This document shows, one piece after another, positions 4,696-30,289 of a stretch of 32,421 nt of DNA. Under the pieces are notes generated by a model. It was not told the origin of the DNA. It saw only the letters and a program-made list of their open reading frames with translations, and made no database searches. Both the position numbers and the translations under genes were made by a program. Each line of letters opens with the position of its first letter. Positions within the stretch are counted from its first letter, which is position 1. Source of the stretch: a virus; IMG/VR virus record IMGVR_UViG_3300033153_003551, positions 1-32,421 of that record. The stretch is one strand, 5' to 3'.

Positions 4696-4716
4696 TATAT
4701 CACTCCTTTCATAAAT

Positions 4717-4745
4717 AGTATAACTTATTGTTGTTGTTTGTACAA
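4717..4745 (-). promoter_or_regulatory. Promoter for XRE-replisome organiser unit
   Basis: On the minus strand, TTGTAC (4740-4745) and TATACT (4717-4722) are separated by 17 bases and followed by the ribosome site of the 54-aa XRE gene. The -10 box matches the consensus at five of six positions; the -35 box is weak. The -35 region holds GTTGTTTGTACAAC, a near-dyad that could be an operator. A terminator lies directly upstream, which supports an independent transcript starting here. Confidence 0.6.
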
Positions 4746-4877: not shown

Positions 4878-5199
4878 TAGTTACCTCCAAATCTTTGATT
4901 AGTGATTCAACTGTGTCTAGTGAGATAACTGGAGTCCAATAAAACTCATCTCCACCGTTCCACATAAATATTCTAAAATACGTGTCATAATATCGTATAC
5001 CACAAGTGTTGTCTATTTGATATTCGTAATCTTCGTCTTTGCTTTTATCAAACTTACTTAATACGTTGTCTAATCTTTGTTGGTAATACATTTTTTCTGT
5101 TTCTTTGCCTCCGACTACATAACTACAATGTGTGCATTTATATTGTCTTACACTTCCTTTTAATAATTCTAATTTCATTAAACATTTAGGACATTCCAT
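4867..5199 (-). CDS. Zinc-ribbon protein of unknown function (110 aa)
   Basis: The first 28 residues are a treble-clef or zinc-ribbon type motif, with CPKC at residues 3-6 and CTHC at 22-25. The rest is rich in Asp, Tyr and Trp and has no family I recognise. AAGGAGG precedes the ATG. It belongs to the leftward early operon between an unknown 137-aa gene and the 29-aa membrane peptide. A nucleic-acid or protein-binding accessory role is plausible but not shown. Confidence 0.7.
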   Translation of the reverse strand: MECPKCLMKLELLKGSVRQYKCTHCSYVVGGKETEKMYYQQRLDNVLSKFDKSKDEDYEYQIDNTCGIRYYDTYFRIFMWNGGDEFYWTPVISLDTVESLIKDLEVTNEN

Positions 5200-5612
5200 T
5201 ATACTTCCTCCTTTAATAATTCATGTAGCATATCAATTTGATCGAGTCCGCTTCCATCGTCTAATACTTTTAAATAACTATGGTAATCTATCAACGCACA
5301 TTTTAAATCACTTAATTGCTTAACACGTATCTTTTCTTTATACTTGCTGTGAATATCAACTTTACGATAAAGTCCTTTTAGAGTGTAAATACGATACGTT
5401 ACAGTTGGTATGTCGAGATATTTCAGTGTGTTATAACGTTCTTTCCATTCTCTTAATGTACGTCCAGTTATGCGTAGGTTGAATATACGGTTGATATGAA
5501 GCACAAGCCACGATTCACGATATCCGAAGTGGTCGCTTGTTCTATTCATTAGCTCGATGAAATATAGTTCTTCTGGTGTAGGTTGTACTTGCGGTGATAA
5601 TTTAGTTCTCAT
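5199..5612 (-). CDS. Protein of unknown function (137 aa)
   Basis: I do not recognise this protein. It is mixed helical and basic: an N-terminal segment (QPTPEELYFIELMNRTSDHFGYRES) is followed by a region RITGRTLREWKERYNTLKYL at about residues 47-66 that could be a DNA-binding helix pair. The start is supported by GGAGTGAGAAAG upstream and an ATGA overlap with the 20-codon open frame before it. The stop overlaps the next ATG. Its position among replication and recombination genes is the only hint about function. Confidence 0.65.
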   Translation of the reverse strand: MRTKLSPQVQPTPEELYFIELMNRTSDHFGYRESWLVLHINRIFNLRITGRTLREWKERYNTLKYLDIPTVTYRIYTLKGLYRKVDIHSKYKEKIRVKQLSDLKCALIDYHSYLKVLDDGSGLDQIDMLHELLKEEV

Positions 5613-6750: not shown

Positions 6751-6894
6751 TTATCTACAATTCCAATATGTAATATCGTCACGTAAATCTTCTTCGCCTA
6801 ATCCGTGACACCACATAAAGAATGTTCTATATCGTTTCTTTGGTATCAACTTACCAAATAGTTTAAATATCAATTTACGTATTTCCATATTCAT
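6751..6894 (-). CDS. Small basic protein of unknown function (47 aa)
   Basis: The product starts MNMEIRKLIFKLFGKLIPKK and ends DDITYWNCR. An amphipathic basic N-terminal half is followed by an acidic, Trp/Cys-containing tail. The start is well supported: AGGAGG lies six bases upstream, overlapping the stop codon of the SpoVG-like gene. It fills the gap between that gene and the NinB-like gene. No family is recognised. Confidence 0.65.
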   Translation of the reverse strand: MNMEIRKLIFKLFGKLIPKKRYRTFFMWCHGLGEEDLRDDITYWNCR

Positions 6895-24173: not shown

Positions 24174-25190
24174 TTATAGTGAGTTTGCACTATTGATTTG
24201 AATCAATGTAGGTCTTACTGCTCCACTAATTGATGCTAATCTTTGTTTCAACGCTGAATCTCCAACGTGTTTTGCATCGCCATCTAATGATACGATTCTA
24301 GCTTCATGTCTAAATACATCTTTGAAATAGAATGCATCAGGATGTCCTGCTATCATATGTGTACCACTTGGTAATAATACTGTTGAGAAGATGTTGAATC
24401 CTAATAAACGACCAACTGAACCTTCTACTTGTTGCATTTTTGATGCTGGTTCTGCAATGATTACTGTTGCATCAGGACTTAATAATAAGTTTTCTGTTGC
24501 ACTATCTACTACTAAATATCTACCACTTCTTGGCGCTTTTGCTAAATCTAACGCTGCTTTAAGTGCTAATACATCGTTGTAGATTGATGCTGCTGTTGGC
24601 GCTGCTACTGAATAAGCTGTTAGTGCTGTTAACCCTGTACCATCTGTTAATGCTTTAAATACTTCACCGATAACTGCTGTTGATCCTGCACAACCTATTG
24701 TTGTTGCATCTCCTGCACTGTTTGCTACCTTAACTGTATACCAGTTTCCTACTACAAAGTTTGTGATAGTAATTACAGATGTTCCAAATGTACCTGATGC
24801 TACTGATCCATCTGCATCCATTTTAATAAATCCGATTGTATCATCTTTTTCTGCTCTAGCTTTTAATCCTGCATCATATCTTTTGGCTACATAGTCACCT
24901 TTTGCATATGCTGCTGCTACCGATAATCCATCCATTAATTCGTTAATTGCTTCATCTTTTAAATTTGATACTACTACATAATCACTACCATCAGTTGATG
25001 GAGTAACTCCTGTACCTGCTACATAATCTTGAATAGTTGCTAATTCATGTACAAATACTTTTGCTGATACTGCACCCTCAGGTAACGTACCATCGTTGAA
25101 ACTAATATTTCTAATAATTGATTCCTGTGCTAATGCTTCTTTACCTACTTGTGTGTATCCTGCTAATACTCTTACTGTATCTATTGCCAT
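24174..25190 (-). CDS. Major capsid protein (338 aa)
   Basis: Position directly after the scaffold gene, length, and Ala/Val-rich composition identify the major capsid protein. The N-terminal part (DTVRVLAGYTQVGKEALAQE, FVHELATIQDYVAGTG) and the C-terminal part (GRYLVVDSATENLLLSPDATVI, RLLGFNIFSTVLLPSGTHMIAG, FRHEARIVSLDGDAKHVGDS) fit the HK97-fold coat group. Residues about 143-196 are an inserted beta domain (FVVGNWYTVKVANSAGDATT and on) resembling the one in the tail tube-like protein; it may project as a surface decoration. GGAGGAAAC precedes the ATG. Confidence 0.82.
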   Translation of the reverse strand: MAIDTVRVLAGYTQVGKEALAQESIIRNISFNDGTLPEGAVSAKVFVHELATIQDYVAGTGVTPSTDGSDYVVVSNLKDEAINELMDGLSVAAAYAKGDYVAKRYDAGLKARAEKDDTIGFIKMDADGSVASGTFGTSVITITNFVVGNWYTVKVANSAGDATTIGCAGSTAVIGEVFKALTDGTGLTALTAYSVAAPTAASIYNDVLALKAALDLAKAPRSGRYLVVDSATENLLLSPDATVIIAEPASKMQQVEGSVGRLLGFNIFSTVLLPSGTHMIAGHPDAFYFKDVFRHEARIVSLDGDAKHVGDSALKQRLASISGAVRPTLIQINSANSL

Positions 25191-25211: not shown

Positions 25212-25781
25212 TTAGTTTTTTTCTCTTAATTTTTTTAATGCTTCTAACGGTTCCGAAGTCTGAGTTTGTTCAAAGTTGTTATTCAATGGTCTATATGTAT
25301 CTTCTCTATTTTCTTTTTTATAATTGTCAATTTGACTTTCAAATGTTACATCATCACTTACATTATTGTTAAACTTGTATTTTAAGAACTCTGCTTTTTC
25401 TTTACCTTTAGTTGTTGTCGAATCAAATCCTAAACCACTGATTAACGTATCTTGTTTAAAGTTAGTATAATCTTTTGATATAGTTGTATTTGATTTTAAT
25501 GCATCGTCTAGTTCTTTTTGTAATGTTACTGATTGTTTTTGAAAATCTGTTGAACTATCATTAATAGTTGATGCCCATTTCTTAACGCCTTCAATGTCAC
25601 TCGCTTCAATACCTAATTCCGTAATGAAATTGCTAACTAACTCTGTTTCCTTTTTGCCAATCTCTTTTTTGACATTCTTTTTTACAATTCCATTAACCTG
25701 TGATTGAAAAGATGCCTCTGCGTCCTCATAATTGATTTCGCCATCTTTGGTATGCTTTTCTAATAATTCTTTAAAATTCAT
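25212..25781 (-). CDS. Capsid scaffolding protein, GP20-like (189 aa)
   Basis: A charged, highly helical protein with coiled-coil segments (VKKNVKKEIGKKETELVSNF, VTLQKELDDALKSNT) and a Gln/Glu-rich disordered C-terminus. It lies directly before the major capsid gene, the normal place of the scaffold. The start (FKELLEKHTKDGEINYEDAEASF) is like the phage GP20 minor structural or scaffold family. The scaffold directs procapsid assembly and leaves before maturation. Its leader carries a structured RNA element, described separately. Confidence 0.75.
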   Translation of the reverse strand: MNFKELLEKHTKDGEINYEDAEASFQSQVNGIVKKNVKKEIGKKETELVSNFITELGIEASDIEGVKKWASTINDSSTDFQKQSVTLQKELDDALKSNTTISKDYTNFKQDTLISGLGFDSTTTKGKEKAEFLKYKFNNNVSDDVTFESQIDNYKKENREDTYRPLNNNFEQTQTSEPLEALKKLREKN

Positions 25782-25900
25782 ATTGTTCCTCCTATTTAAG
25801 TCGTGAGCCGACCCTCCTTGTTTTAAGGTTTACAAGCAACCTGTTTTCCTATGAGTGTGCATAGCCACTTTATTATTAAGGGGTTGATACCCTTTATAAC
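25782..25900 (-). promoter_or_regulatory. Structured leader RNA before the scaffold gene
   Basis: The only long gap inside the late operon. On the minus strand it can form four hairpins in a row: AAGGG/CCCTT (about 25878-25894), CTATG/CATAG (25849-25864), AGGTT/AACCT (25826-25842) and GTCG-GCTCA-CGAC (25800-25812). The last sits about seven bases before AGGAGG of the scaffold gene. Its loop GCTCA and flanking bases (GGCTCAC) recur in the hairpin before the small terminase gene. A cis-acting control of scaffold translation or mRNA processing is likely. I recall Rfam motifs named after GP20 genes; whether this is one needs a covariance search. Confidence 0.65.
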
Positions 25901-26758
25901 CTAATCGAATATTAAATAACATTTACAATAGATAGTCTCTCCTGGTGGTAAACTATCATCACCTGGTCGTTGTGCTTTCATGCCACACGATCTAAACGGA
26001 CTTTCTATCGGTATTCTTTTGTTGACTACTCCATTATGGAAACAAGTCTCTCTCTTATTTGGTGATTGATTCTGTTTCCAAGTCTTATGTGTGTAGCCTA
26101 ATGCTATACTGTGTTCTTGTCTTACTAATTCACTTGCTCTATGTAATTCAGTCTGTAATGCTCGTTTAATGTTGTTAGGATTGTTGTACTTTTTAGTTAA
26201 TCCTTTTTTTATACTCGCAATAGACTTATTAGCTTTTAAACCTTGCTTTAAGTCTCGTAACATACGTTTGCTTATCTTCGACTTCTTAATAGAGTTTTGG
26301 ATTTCTTTTACTGCTCTATTTCTAGTTTTGACTAACACTTGCTTGTTCTTCGATTCAAAACTTCTAATAAACAATCGTGCTCTCTTCTCGTTAGCGTTCA
26401 AACCTTTACCTTTAATAATCTTATTAACTCGTTTAGCAAATTGTTTAGGCTTGGCTATACTGTATATTGCCAACAACCCAAGTATAGGTGCTACACTATC
26501 GTTTTTCTTTGCTTGTCTAGGTTTGTTTATCAATTCTATAATAGTGTTCTGTATAGCGAATAATAACGCCATATCAGTTATATTCAATGATTGATTACTG
26601 ATAATAGATTTTACTTTATCTACTGTTAAATTCTCTACATTGTTAATTAACTCATTATTGATTGCTTTGATGTAACTACCATATGCTTTAGAGTTTTCTT
26701 TGAATGCTAGGTCAATGAATGCATCGTTTATTTCATCTATTAACTTTAACTTCCCCAT
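25901..26758 (-). CDS. MuF-like minor head protein (285 aa)
   Basis: The C-terminal part matches the Mu gpF / SPP1 gp7 minor head protein group: LQTELHRASELVRQEHSIALG, then KTWKQNQSPNKRETCFHNGV with a conserved Cys-His, then RPGDDSLPPGETIYCKCYLIF. The closing CKC is the typical family end (usually CRC). The N-terminal two-thirds is helical and very basic. These proteins sit at the portal vertex and may enter the cell with DNA. The gene follows the portal gene with a one-base overlap. Confidence 0.8.
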   Translation of the reverse strand: MGKLKLIDEINDAFIDLAFKENSKAYGSYIKAINNELINNVENLTVDKVKSIISNQSLNITDMALLFAIQNTIIELINKPRQAKKNDSVAPILGLLAIYSIAKPKQFAKRVNKIIKGKGLNANEKRARLFIRSFESKNKQVLVKTRNRAVKEIQNSIKKSKISKRMLRDLKQGLKANKSIASIKKGLTKKYNNPNNIKRALQTELHRASELVRQEHSIALGYTHKTWKQNQSPNKRETCFHNGVVNKRIPIESPFRSCGMKAQRPGDDSLPPGETIYCKCYLIFD

Positions 26759-28278
26759 TATTCATCATCTGTTTCTTCTTCTTCATCATCGTCGTCTGTA
26801 TCCTCTACATTTTCAGCGAACGATATGAATGCATCATCTTTTTCTTCTTGTGCTTCGGCTACCCATTTTTTAGCTTCATCATCAGTAAGGTTATAGCGTT
26901 CTGCTACATATCTCCATTTAGCTACGTAACCCTCGTTTGAATCTGCTTTCATTTCTGTTAGTCGTTGCTCATCATTGATAATCATACTATCATCTAACTG
27001 CACTACGTATTCCTTGTTATTGATTTCTTCTAATGACATAATTGCTTTCATCATATTCGTTAAGAATGTTTTAACTAGATTTGCATTGGCTTGTCTATTG
27101 CGCCACATATCACTATTAGAACTGAATACATTAGCCTCGTTGACATATACTCCACCTTCATCAAAGTTAAAGTAATTCTTACCTAACCCACATTTAAGCG
27201 ATATTAGATTTAAATCAAATTGTATTGCTGTGTTATGAGTTTCAGGCTCATACGTTGGGTCGTATATTTCTAGCTTCTTATCGCTGTCTCCAAGATTAGC
27301 TGTTTTATATAACGTTTGGTCTCTATCTAAGTACTCAACATAACTATTCACTATGTCGTTATTTTCTGCATCATAACTTTTAACAACTTCACTCTTGCTT
27401 GATTGATCATCAAAGAATATCTTTTTACGAGAGTTGATGCTATCTTCTATGCTTGAATAGAACTTATCATCAATACTTTTTAATAATCCTATTTCATTCG
27501 CAGCAACACTTATTCCCAATGGTGAGAAATCAAAGTTGTTTGCTATGTTATACTTGAATACTTGGAAATATGGTGTGTCTGTTTGATACTCCATATAGAA
27601 CACTACATCTTTACTTCCATCTTTGTCTGTTATTATATGTTTGAATTTATTACTCTCTGCAACTGTAAACACTGGTCTTAAGGTAGGTTTTTTAGTCCCT
27701 AGCTTACTCTGTGTCTTACTTTCATATACTTCATGTTCTACACGGTATGTACCATCTTTAAATGTGTGTATAGTTAAATGTGTATAGTATTTTTTATTCT
27801 TCATTACACGTTGCAATACTACTATACCGCTTGGTGTAGTATTATGGTAATCAGTGATAACTAATGTGTCACCATATGAGAATCCAACCTTTGTTTTCTT
27901 GTCTGCTATATATTCAATAGCGACACCTGTTCCATACAATGCTGTCTTTTCAAAGAATATACTTAATTCCGTATATAGATTATTATCATTGATTATCTCG
28001 TCTAACTTATCTTGATTAGATTCATCGACTTGTAATCCACTATTCTCATTCCACATTAAACTTGAATAAGTCTCACATATTAATTTCATTATGTTTAAAC
28101 TTGGTTTTTGAACTGTGTGATTACGTCCATCTATTGTCTTGAGGTTAAATCTATGGAAATCTACAACCTCGCCTTGATAGAAGTCTACCCATTCTCTCAT
28201 TTTTTGATATATAGATGTGGTTGGTACTCTATAACCTTTTTGTATCATTACTTGTGAAACTTCATTAATTACGCTCAT
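26758..28278 (-). CDS. Portal protein (506 aa)
   Basis: The dodecameric ring at the capsid vertex for DNA entry and tail attachment. The sequence fits the SPP1/A118-like portal group: WVDFYQGEVVDFHRFNL near the N-terminus, PSLNIMKLICETYSSLMWNE, then ETALYGTGVAIEYIADKK, and the late GGVYVNEANVFSSNSDMWRNRQANANLV. The C-terminus is a strongly acidic tail (EDTDDDDEEEETDDE). An upstream in-frame ATG exists at 28335, but ATG 28278 has AAGGAG upstream and a four-base overlap with the terminase stop, so it is chosen. Followed by the MuF-like gene. Confidence 0.82.
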   Translation of the reverse strand: MSVINEVSQVMIQKGYRVPTTSIYQKMREWVDFYQGEVVDFHRFNLKTIDGRNHTVQKPSLNIMKLICETYSSLMWNENSGLQVDESNQDKLDEIINDNNLYTELSIFFEKTALYGTGVAIEYIADKKTKVGFSYGDTLVITDYHNTTPSGIVVLQRVMKNKKYYTHLTIHTFKDGTYRVEHEVYESKTQSKLGTKKPTLRPVFTVAESNKFKHIITDKDGSKDVVFYMEYQTDTPYFQVFKYNIANNFDFSPLGISVAANEIGLLKSIDDKFYSSIEDSINSRKKIFFDDQSSKSEVVKSYDAENNDIVNSYVEYLDRDQTLYKTANLGDSDKKLEIYDPTYEPETHNTAIQFDLNLISLKCGLGKNYFNFDEGGVYVNEANVFSSNSDMWRNRQANANLVKTFLTNMMKAIMSLEEINNKEYVVQLDDSMIINDEQRLTEMKADSNEGYVAKWRYVAERYNLTDDEAKKWVAEAQEEKDDAFISFAENVEDTDDDDEEEETDDE

Positions 28279-29642
28279 CTTATCAAATCTCCTTTTACTA
28301 TCGTATCGTATATTATATCCATGTCCTCTAACCAACTATACCAAAAGCCATCAACACTGTCTATGTCGCTTCTTCCATCATCTGCTAATTCACCTTTTTT
28401 ATTATACTCTGCGCCTTCTAATGCTTTTATTAGATGCTTACATTCAACGGGATCAATAGTACAATAATTAGAACCGAAGATGATTTCCGTTATATCTCCA
28501 CGTTCTTGTATGACTGACTTTTCTTTTTTAGTTTGTTTCCTTCGCTTCATCTTATGTAATGGTTTCATATCGATGAATCTATAATTAATTGCTATCTGTT
28601 CTTTTAATAACATACCTAGCGTAGTGTTGTTCGCACTATCTATATATAATATGATTATCTTCTTATACTTTAGAAACAGGTCTTGACAGAACTTTAATAT
28701 ATCATCCCTGTAATCATTTATAGTCTTTATTTTTGGGCTTACACCGTTCTTATGATAGTATTGTTTGAATATCTCCATACGTTCATAATTACGGACTACA
28801 CCTCTTGCTATTGCTGTTGTTGCATCATTCCCACCAAAGTCTACTCCTACTACTATCTTACTATACACGTGTGTAGATGGTTTGGCGTGGACTAACCTAC
28901 TGAATGTTTTAAAGAATGTTCCCTCAAGGTTAGCAGGATAGCCTAAGTACTCTGATTTATATAGTTCTGGATTAACATTCCTTAATATCTCTATCTCTTT
29001 AAGTAATGGTTTACCTAAGAACTCTTCCATTTGTTGTTTAGGTGTATCGTTATAATTAGTTTTCTTAACGTAAGCATCTTCTCTTATTGCCATCTCTCCC
29101 ATGAACTCATATGTCCAATGTGATAGTTTAGGTGCGTTATTCCATTCATATAGACTAATGAACCATTCTCCAGCCTCTCTCATTACAGATGACTTAGCTG
29201 TGGTTATGTAAGTACGGTCTTTAAACTCTGTTATCTCAAAGAACCACGCTATATTGATTACGTTACTTGGTTTGGTTGGTCTATATCCTTTTAACTTATC
29301 CTTAACCTTCATTTGTTTAAAGTGGATGAAGTTTCCTTGTGGTAGTTTAATGAACAACACTGATGTTAGTCCTGTAGGATAATTAACTCCTGGTTTTAAC
29401 TTAATGCCTAGTTTCTCATAAGCCCATATTAAATCTCTAAACGTACTATCTCTATGGTCTGTATAATCTTGTCTAAATACTATTGCTTCTATATTAGGGT
29501 TCGCTAGTGTTAGTATAGCTATCTTGATTGCGTTCTTACTAGACTTGTACCCTGCTCTACCACCATGATCTAATTGATTAGGCAGCATAGAGTTAAAGTT
29601 CTCTAAGTGAGGTTCTGCTACTATCTCGCTAATTCGTACCAT
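28275..29642 (-). CDS. terL: Terminase large subunit (455 aa)
   Basis: The DNA-packaging motor and nuclease. HGGRAGYKSSKNA at about residues 26-38 is the Walker A type of the PBSX-like terminases. IAWFFEI (131-137) is the Walker B region with Glu136. In the C-terminal nuclease domain, VVGVDFGGND gives Asp268, LYIDSANNTT gives Asp335, and the final DDGRSDIDSVDG supplies the third acidic site. Length is normal. It overlaps the small terminase gene upstream and the portal downstream. Confidence 0.9.
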   Translation of the reverse strand: MVRISEIVAEPHLENFNSMLPNQLDHGGRAGYKSSKNAIKIAILTLANPNIEAIVFRQDYTDHRDSTFRDLIWAYEKLGIKLKPGVNYPTGLTSVLFIKLPQGNFIHFKQMKVKDKLKGYRPTKPSNVINIAWFFEITEFKDRTYITTAKSSVMREAGEWFISLYEWNNAPKLSHWTYEFMGEMAIREDAYVKKTNYNDTPKQQMEEFLGKPLLKEIEILRNVNPELYKSEYLGYPANLEGTFFKTFSRLVHAKPSTHVYSKIVVGVDFGGNDATTAIARGVVRNYERMEIFKQYYHKNGVSPKIKTINDYRDDILKFCQDLFLKYKKIIILYIDSANNTTLGMLLKEQIAINYRFIDMKPLHKMKRRKQTKKEKSVIQERGDITEIIFGSNYCTIDPVECKHLIKALEGAEYNKKGELADDGRSDIDSVDGFWYSWLEDMDIIYDTIVKGDLIR

Positions 29643-30135
29643 AGATTATGTCCTTTACTGGTGCATCGTTTATTATCTGTACTGTTGCAAAGGCATCAGG
29701 GTTCTCTATTCTAGCTTGCAGCTCTTGTTCTTTAAGTTCTAATGTTCTTTCTTGTATATCTAATTTATGTCTATCTAGTTGTAGTTTCTCATATGCCATT
29801 CCTTTATCAAATGTATTACCTACTAATGCTATTATGCTTCTTAATCCTCTACTATCGAATTCTTTCTGCATATTCTCTTTTGTAAATATTGATATGCCAT
29901 CTTCTGCTATCTCTTTATATCGGACTGATTTAATGATATCCAATAGTTCTTCGTTGTTCTTCTGTTCGTTTTTATTGTAATCGTCTAAAAACTGTTGATT
30001 CACTGTCCAATTACTTTTTAGCACTTTGATTACCGAGCCCCTATTAACGCCCACAAGTCTTGCTATCTCAGTGTTGTTTTTTCCTTCGTTCTTACTCAAT
30101 ATAATGATATGGTCTTTTTGTGCATTGGTTAACAA
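29629..30135 (-). CDS. terS: Terminase small subunit (168 aa)
   Basis: This protein would recognise the packaging site. The N-terminal 45 residues contain a helix-turn-helix (NAQKDHIIILSKNEGKNN, TEIARLVGVNRGSVIKVLK), and a C-terminal coiled coil (KLQLDRHKLDIQERTLELKE) probably drives ring assembly. The start appears to be TTG 30135, with AAGGAGGTGA at normal distance and no good ATG nearby. It is the first gene of the late operon, directly after the promoter and its structured leader, and overlaps the large terminase gene by 14 bases. Confidence 0.8.
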   Translation of the reverse strand: MLTNAQKDHIIILSKNEGKNNTEIARLVGVNRGSVIKVLKSNWTVNQQFLDDYNKNEQKNNEELLDIIKSVRYKEIAEDGISIFTKENMQKEFDSRGLRSIIALVGNTFDKGMAYEKLQLDRHKLDIQERTLELKEQELQARIENPDAFATVQIINDAPVKDIIYGTN

Positions 30136-30209
30136 TTAAATCACCTCCTTTTACCGTAGTGAGCCTACGTCACCCAAGTTATACCTCTTGGCAGGTCAAT
30201 ATCTCTCTC
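30136..30209 (-). promoter_or_regulatory. Structured 5' leader of the late operon
   Basis: Between the promoter and the terminase gene the transcript can form CCAAG/CTTGG (30174-30191) and CGTAG-GCTCA-CTACG (30155-30169), the latter about nine bases before AAGGAGG. The hairpin loop is identical to that in the scaffold leader. Alternative pairings exist: ACCT with AGGT would block the first hairpin, and GTGA upstream can pair with TCAC of the loop, giving an H-type pseudoknot arrangement. Control of late-operon translation or RNA stability is likely. Confidence 0.6.
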
Positions 30210-30215
30210 TCCTTT

Positions 30216-30245
30216 ATTTTAAATCATTTTCGTACAGTCTGTCAA
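30216..30245 (-). promoter_or_regulatory. Late operon promoter
   Basis: On the minus strand perfect TTGACA (30240-30245) and TAAAAT (30216-30221) are separated by 18 bases. Transcription would start near 30209. It lies just after a terminator and drives the structural genes from 30135 down to 11912, over 18 kb. No phage sigma or late activator gene was recognised, but the match to the host consensus suggests none is needed; timing may depend on repression or on the leader RNA. Confidence 0.8.
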
Positions 30246-30264: not shown

Positions 30265-30289
30265 AAAAAAGGAGGTTGTTAGCCTCCTA
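30265..30289 (-). terminator. Rho-independent terminator before the late promoter
   Basis: On the minus strand AGGAGG and CCTCCT form a stem around CTAACAA-type loop bases, followed by a run of T. It ends the unit of small genes 31373-30301, about 12 bases after the last stop codon. Confidence 0.85.

Follow-up and report, generated by a model that had tools for sequence, protein, structure and literature searches.

Two leaders of one phage genome, one before the packaging genes and one before the scaffold gene, raise the question of what RNA element they share and what it does there. The window, the whole stretch of DNA analysed, is the IMG/VR uncultured virus record IMGVR_UViG_3300033153_003551 of 32,421 bp. 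Its minus strand carries late genes in the order putative small terminase (terS), large terminase (terL), portal, head morphogenesis, scaffold and capsid.

Two leaders of the window share a two-hairpin element

The relevant features, in the order of transcription, are as follows.

30270–30288, minus strand: intrinsic terminator-like hairpin of the upstream operon
30216–30245, minus strand: sigma-A-type promoter TTGACA-18-TAAAAT (11/12), a consensus match only; transcription of the terS operon would begin here, upstream of the element
30174–30191, minus strand: H1 hairpin of the terS leader, C-CAAG-(AGGTATAA)-CTTG-G (sequence and covariation)
30170–30173, minus strand: linker GTGA after H1 of the terS leader
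30155–30169, minus strand: H2 hairpin of the terS leader, CGTAG-GCTCA-CTACG (sequence and covariation)
30144–30149, minus strand: terS Shine-Dalgarno sequence (SD) AGGAGG, with GAG at 30145–30147 complementary to loop CTC at 30161–30163
29629–30135, minus strand: putative small terminase, an HTH protein with a TTG start; the homologue in relative L126 has ATG at the same place
28275–29642, minus strand: large terminase (phrog_3717, 3.5e-22)
25848–25866, minus strand: extra H1-type hairpin CTATG-(CACACT)-CATAG, then GGAAAA, upstream of the scaffold element
25817–25836, minus strand: H1 hairpin of the scaffold leader, C-TTGT-(AAACCTTAAA)-ACAA-G (sequence and covariation)
25813–25816, minus strand: linker GAGG after H1 of the scaffold leader
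25800–25812, minus strand: H2 hairpin of the scaffold leader, GTCG-GCTCA-CGAC (sequence and covariation); a G-U pair can extend the stem
25788–25793, minus strand: scaffold-gene SD AGGAGG, with GAG at 25789–25791 complementary to loop CTC at 25805–25807
25212–25781, minus strand: scaffold protein gene, homologous to the scaffold of L017, which itself matches phrog_2303
24174–25190, minus strand: major capsid protein gene, 3´ of the scaffold gene (phrog_267, 5e-13)

The first-pass annotation had placed a GCUCA-loop hairpin in each leader, and both were confirmed on the minus strand at 25800–25812 and 30155–30169. It had also asked whether such hairpins recur by chance. Within the window, GCTCA-loop hairpins with at least four Watson-Crick pairs occur at these two sites only; dinucleotide shuffles of the minus strand contain 0.07 on average, and none of 200 contains two. 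The heptamer GGCTCAC by itself is weakly enriched (3 in the window against 0.83 expected), which is not significant alone. In the two leaders AGGAGG follows the H2 stem after 5–6 nt. Two features had been overlooked: each H2 is directly preceded by another hairpin, H1, and a conserved linker, and the H2 loop is complementary to the SD.

The extra H1-type hairpin at 25848–25866 has the same sequence as H1 of the first-gene element of L195 (L195 1681–1728). Tandem partial copies are also present in the relatives L126, L159 and L172.

The element recurs before packaging and scaffold genes of relatives

A close relative, L002, whose portal is 76% identical, has AGGTG-GCTCA-CACCT in the corresponding position ahead of its scaffold gene; the loop is unchanged, and the stem differs from both stems of the window. 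The pattern GGCTCAC-N8/9-AGGAGG-start, which does not require a stem, was sought in 2.9 million viral contigs and gave at least 119 stretches; among the matches listed, six have at least four Watson-Crick pairs. These six also share the upstream H1 and the linker, usually GGUAA, neither of which was selected for. The genes downstream of them are terS and scaffold genes, and two of the scan contigs, L060 and L071, each hold a second copy. Scan contigs lacking the element were the negative control, and those searched gave no match to covariance model R2 at E<=0.1.

Relatives were also chosen independently of the motif, by TerL alignment (31 loci) and by head-morphogenesis alignment (27 loci), and scanned with covariance models R2 and R3, which replaced a model R1 with a misaligned H1. 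In many lineages the element was found ahead of the scaffold gene, ahead of the first packaging gene (usually terS), or ahead of both. The only exceptions to this positioning are weak tandem copies that directly precede the scaffold copy; within the genomes searched, the element is confined to packaging-operon and scaffold leaders. Both copies are present in the window, L060, L071, L126, L154, L159, L162, L172, L192 and L195. The search of relatives and the covariance-model scan had been proposed in the first-pass annotation, and its claim that one element is common to terS-operon and scaffold leaders thus holds in the window and beyond it.

In two carriers the first gene behind the element is not terS. 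The element precedes a ParB/methylase-like gene (461 aa) at L195 1681–1728 and an 81-residue protein of no assigned function at L154 1018–1063. As these two loci show, the element marks the first gene of the packaging operon.

The R2/R3 scans found no element in L164–L169, L175, L176 and L179, which indicates that it is not essential to this phage type. A portal relative, L003, has neither the motif nor a comparable scaffold leader, and L157, a distant relative that is a human-gut phage, has no element. A single-sequence TerL search of viral and genome collections returned no relatives, and nucleotide searches against named phages yielded nothing beyond chance matches. When 85,000 bacterial genomes were scanned for the exact pattern, which covers GUG-stem forms only, eight matches with neither H1 nor linker were returned; these were judged to be chance.

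Compensatory changes preserve both hairpins

The element spans about 50 nt and has the layout GC-H1-G-GUAA-H2(loop GCUCA)-A-rich tail-AGGAGG-start. In alignment A11, whose 20 leaders come from the window and from relatives chosen by TerL, all 176 cells are paired (100%) and 55 cells are changed on both sides, a number reached in 0 of 500 shuffles; sliding the partners by one column lowers pairing to 21–52%. Across all 24 leaders, 98.6% of cells are paired and 68 carry two-sided changes. Fitting to the model biases both alignments towards the structure; 25 two-sided changes are already present in the seed A6, which was aligned with MAFFT after H1 loops had been shortened. RNAalifold recovers the same nine pairs, and most single leaders form both hairpins when folded alone. 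The leaders chosen without reference to the motif therefore define a new conserved RNA element with compensatory changes. Selection on the RNA, first proposed from stems that differ and still pair, is supported by the 55 two-sided changes in A11.

The conserved unpaired nucleotides are the GC before H1, GGUAA, and the G and C of the loop. The first-pass annotation had described one hairpin with a conserved loop. The hairpin structure stands; the unit really consists of two hairpins and a linker, and the loop, most commonly GCUCA in relatives, is not invariant. Besides the majority form, GCUCU, GCUUA, GCUUU, GCACA, GCCCA, GCUCG and GUCCU occur.

Two explanations can be set aside from these features. 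A DNA operator or cruciform is excluded by stems that differ completely yet pair, by the short distance to the SD and by the position downstream of the promoter. An intrinsic terminator is excluded by the lack of a U tract.

The phage loop variants also bear on a resemblance to ribosomal RNA. Near nt 265, E. coli 16S rRNA (L188) reads GGUGGGGUAACGGCUCACC, which shares GGUAA and GGCUCAC with the element, and imitation of 16S helix 11 (GGUAACGGCUCACC) might capture a host ribosomal protein. The variants GCUCU, GCUUA and GCCCA break this likeness, and in 16S rRNA CUCACC lies in a stem and GUAA in the loop, so that the structure differs from that of the phage element. The resemblance is probably chance, and imitation seems very improbable.

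The H2 loop varies in step with the Shine-Dalgarno sequence

Single-sequence folds of some loop variants paired the loop with the SD, and for this reason loop-SD complementarity was tested. In a first set of leaders, loop nucleotides 2–4 are Watson-Crick complementary to the leader's own SD core in 27 of 28; with permuted loops this was reached in 0 of 20,000 trials for the SD core and in 38 of 20,000 for the whole SD-to-start region. All five leaders fetched after the hypothesis had been formed fit it, which brings the total to 32 of 33. For the 33 leaders, permuted loops gave 7 of 20,000 (8 of 20,000 without the two weakest matches and 7 of 20,000 after dereplication) in a test that ignores shared ancestry, and the variants do lie in different lineages. 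The neighbouring register, loop positions 1–3, gives no match.

Compensatory combinations are found in L162 (loop CAC with SD AGGUGG, CAC:GUG), L163 (CCC with UGGGG, CCC:GGG) and L185 (CUU with AGGAAG, CUU:AAG). The one exception, the L154_s leader, pairs CUU with GAG through a single G-U wobble. The element thus shows the loop-SD complementarity and compensatory variation that characterise regulators with an SD-sequestering pseudoknot. The CUC:GAG complementarity could be partly incidental, since most SDs contain GAG, and the comparison draws its force from about 4–6 variant leaders.

Because the loop varies in step with the SD, an SD-hiding pseudoknot is favoured over a bare protein-binding loop. 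Coat-protein and other phage translational operators block ribosome binding beside the SD, and a head protein or host RNA-binding protein might likewise grip H1, the GUAA linker and the GCUCA loop and block the 30S subunit there, with loop-SD complementarity only secondary. More unpaired nucleotides are conserved than pairing needs, the SD spacing is short, and each phage has two copies with different stems, all as such an operator would have them. A protein that binds purely the loop would not require it to change together with the SD, however, and we regard an operator lacking the pseudoknot as unlikely.

The same covariation bears on the idea that the hairpins are RNase targets or shields, which would process the mRNA or stabilise its 5´ end and make the terS and scaffold messages long-lived. 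The terS leaders have promoter-like sequence shortly upstream, which would place the element near the 5´ end, and the scaffold leaders of the window, L002 and L126 lie inside an operon, where cutting could make a new 5´ end. Stabilising hairpins need neither loop-SD covariation nor a conserved linker, and such a role appears quite improbable.

Other scaffold leaders in the collection differ. In L202 (about 6790–6835), the hairpin CAUCUU-AUCC-AAGAUG is followed by AUAAAGAGGAG and its loop UCC likewise complements the SD; this may be another type of leader that works on the same principle. L167 (about 5140–5200), L190 (about 5090–5130) and L191 (about 4700–4740) share a scaffold leader with an ACCACUUGGGGUU..ACCAAG-like hairpin and no CUC loop.

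A candidate translational switch

We favour, with some confidence, the reading that the window holds two copies of a cis-acting RNA element that controls translation initiation through an SD-hiding pseudoknot. The loop CUC would pair with GAG of AGGAGG across the A-rich tail to form a small H-type pseudoknot. The SD would be free (ON) as long as only H2 forms and hidden (OFF) once the pseudoknot does. The formation of the pseudoknot in solution and repression as the direction of control are what we infer from the sequence. The pseudoknot would be held by only three base pairs; therefore a bound factor is probably needed. Such a structure should be marginal alone, which suits a partner-dependent switch. 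The factor would bind H1, the linker and H2 together and either stabilise the pseudoknot or prevent it.

Promoter-like sequences stand at the same place before the packaging-operon leaders of relatives, and directly upstream of the window's scaffold leader no promoter-like match occurs on the minus strand; the lack of one there also favours action on translation rather than on transcription start. The sigma-A-type promoters give no evident timing, and a switch at the level of translation could provide it. If one factor acted on both leaders, packaging proteins and scaffold would be regulated together although their sigma-A promoters are otherwise ordinary. The element probably switches the production of packaging and head-assembly proteins on or off together, and a shared trans-acting factor is likely.

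The terS protein is an unlikely regulator, because the terS proteins encoded behind the element fall into unrelated groups between carriers while the element is shared; terS autoregulation is disfavoured. The scaffold, head-morphogenesis and portal proteins of the carriers, by contrast, are homologues, linked either pairwise or through chains of similarity. On the basis of co-occurrence, the scaffold protein, the capsid protein or a host factor remain as candidates. For a phage-encoded factor, a head-assembly protein that all carriers possess would fit better than terS, with scaffold ahead of capsid. Tentatively, free scaffold (or capsid) protein might sense the demand of head assembly and jointly repress scaffold and packaging-motor synthesis through a new class of two-hairpin, SD-hiding pseudoknot riboregulator with two copies per genome.

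Relation to known systems

No match to the element was found with cmscan against all 4,227 families of Rfam 15 in the window, L060, L071, L017, L002 and L093. In the window's terS leader nothing matches at E<=10, in the window as a whole nothing relevant does, and one far sub-threshold match lies on the opposite strand of the L093 leader. GP20-type and other phage RNA motifs in Rfam are also short conserved structures near capsid or scaffold genes, and the comparison suggested in the first-pass annotation found none that matches the element in the window or in the leaders of relatives. Literature searches returned no description of the element. It is an RNA family absent from Rfam 15 and evolutionarily conserved in uncultured phages.

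In topology the element appears, by analogy, closest to the SD pseudoknots of the preQ1-I type. Like the preQ1-I riboswitch and other small SD-hiding H-type pseudoknots, it has a hairpin, an A-rich tail and a loop complementary to the SD by the start codon. It differs in the additional H1 and GUAA linker, in the GCUCA loop and in its position before phage virion genes, and it matches no preQ1 model in Rfam. A sensor of a small molecule or ion would share this topology with the small SD-sequestering pseudoknot riboswitches, and the compact core with conserved unpaired bases agrees with such a sensor. The element matches no Rfam riboswitch, however, occurs only before phage virion genes and is absent from the 85,000 bacterial genomes by exact pattern (GUG-stem forms only); a riboswitch of this kind is therefore improbable.

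In setting, the pseudoknot switch that we favour would be closest to phage translational operators and to scaffold autoregulation in P22. In the MS2/R17 coat operator and the T4 gene 32 leader pseudoknot, an mRNA structure lies beside the ribosome-binding site of a gene for a virion or replication protein. The present element differs in that it occupies two leaders of the same dsDNA phage and shows loop-SD covariation. The P22 scaffolding protein is autoregulated; in this tailed phage scaffold synthesis is controlled post-transcriptionally. We know of no defined RNA site in P22, and a literature search gave no open paper on it; the likeness is one of description, and the element here also stands before packaging genes. 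To our knowledge, the matching of scaffold, capsid and packaging-motor synthesis in tailed phages is poorly understood, and a compact element with known base pairs throughout a phage group offers a candidate site that is open to direct mutational design.

Two further structures were observed near terS genes of relatives. In L060 (about 1220–1360), the promoter block before the terS element is tandem-duplicated (TTGACT...TTATAATTAAGATGTAGAAGTATATCA twice), and in L185 (about 1120–1280) terS is directly preceded by a structured stretch and a tRNA-like 3´ end.
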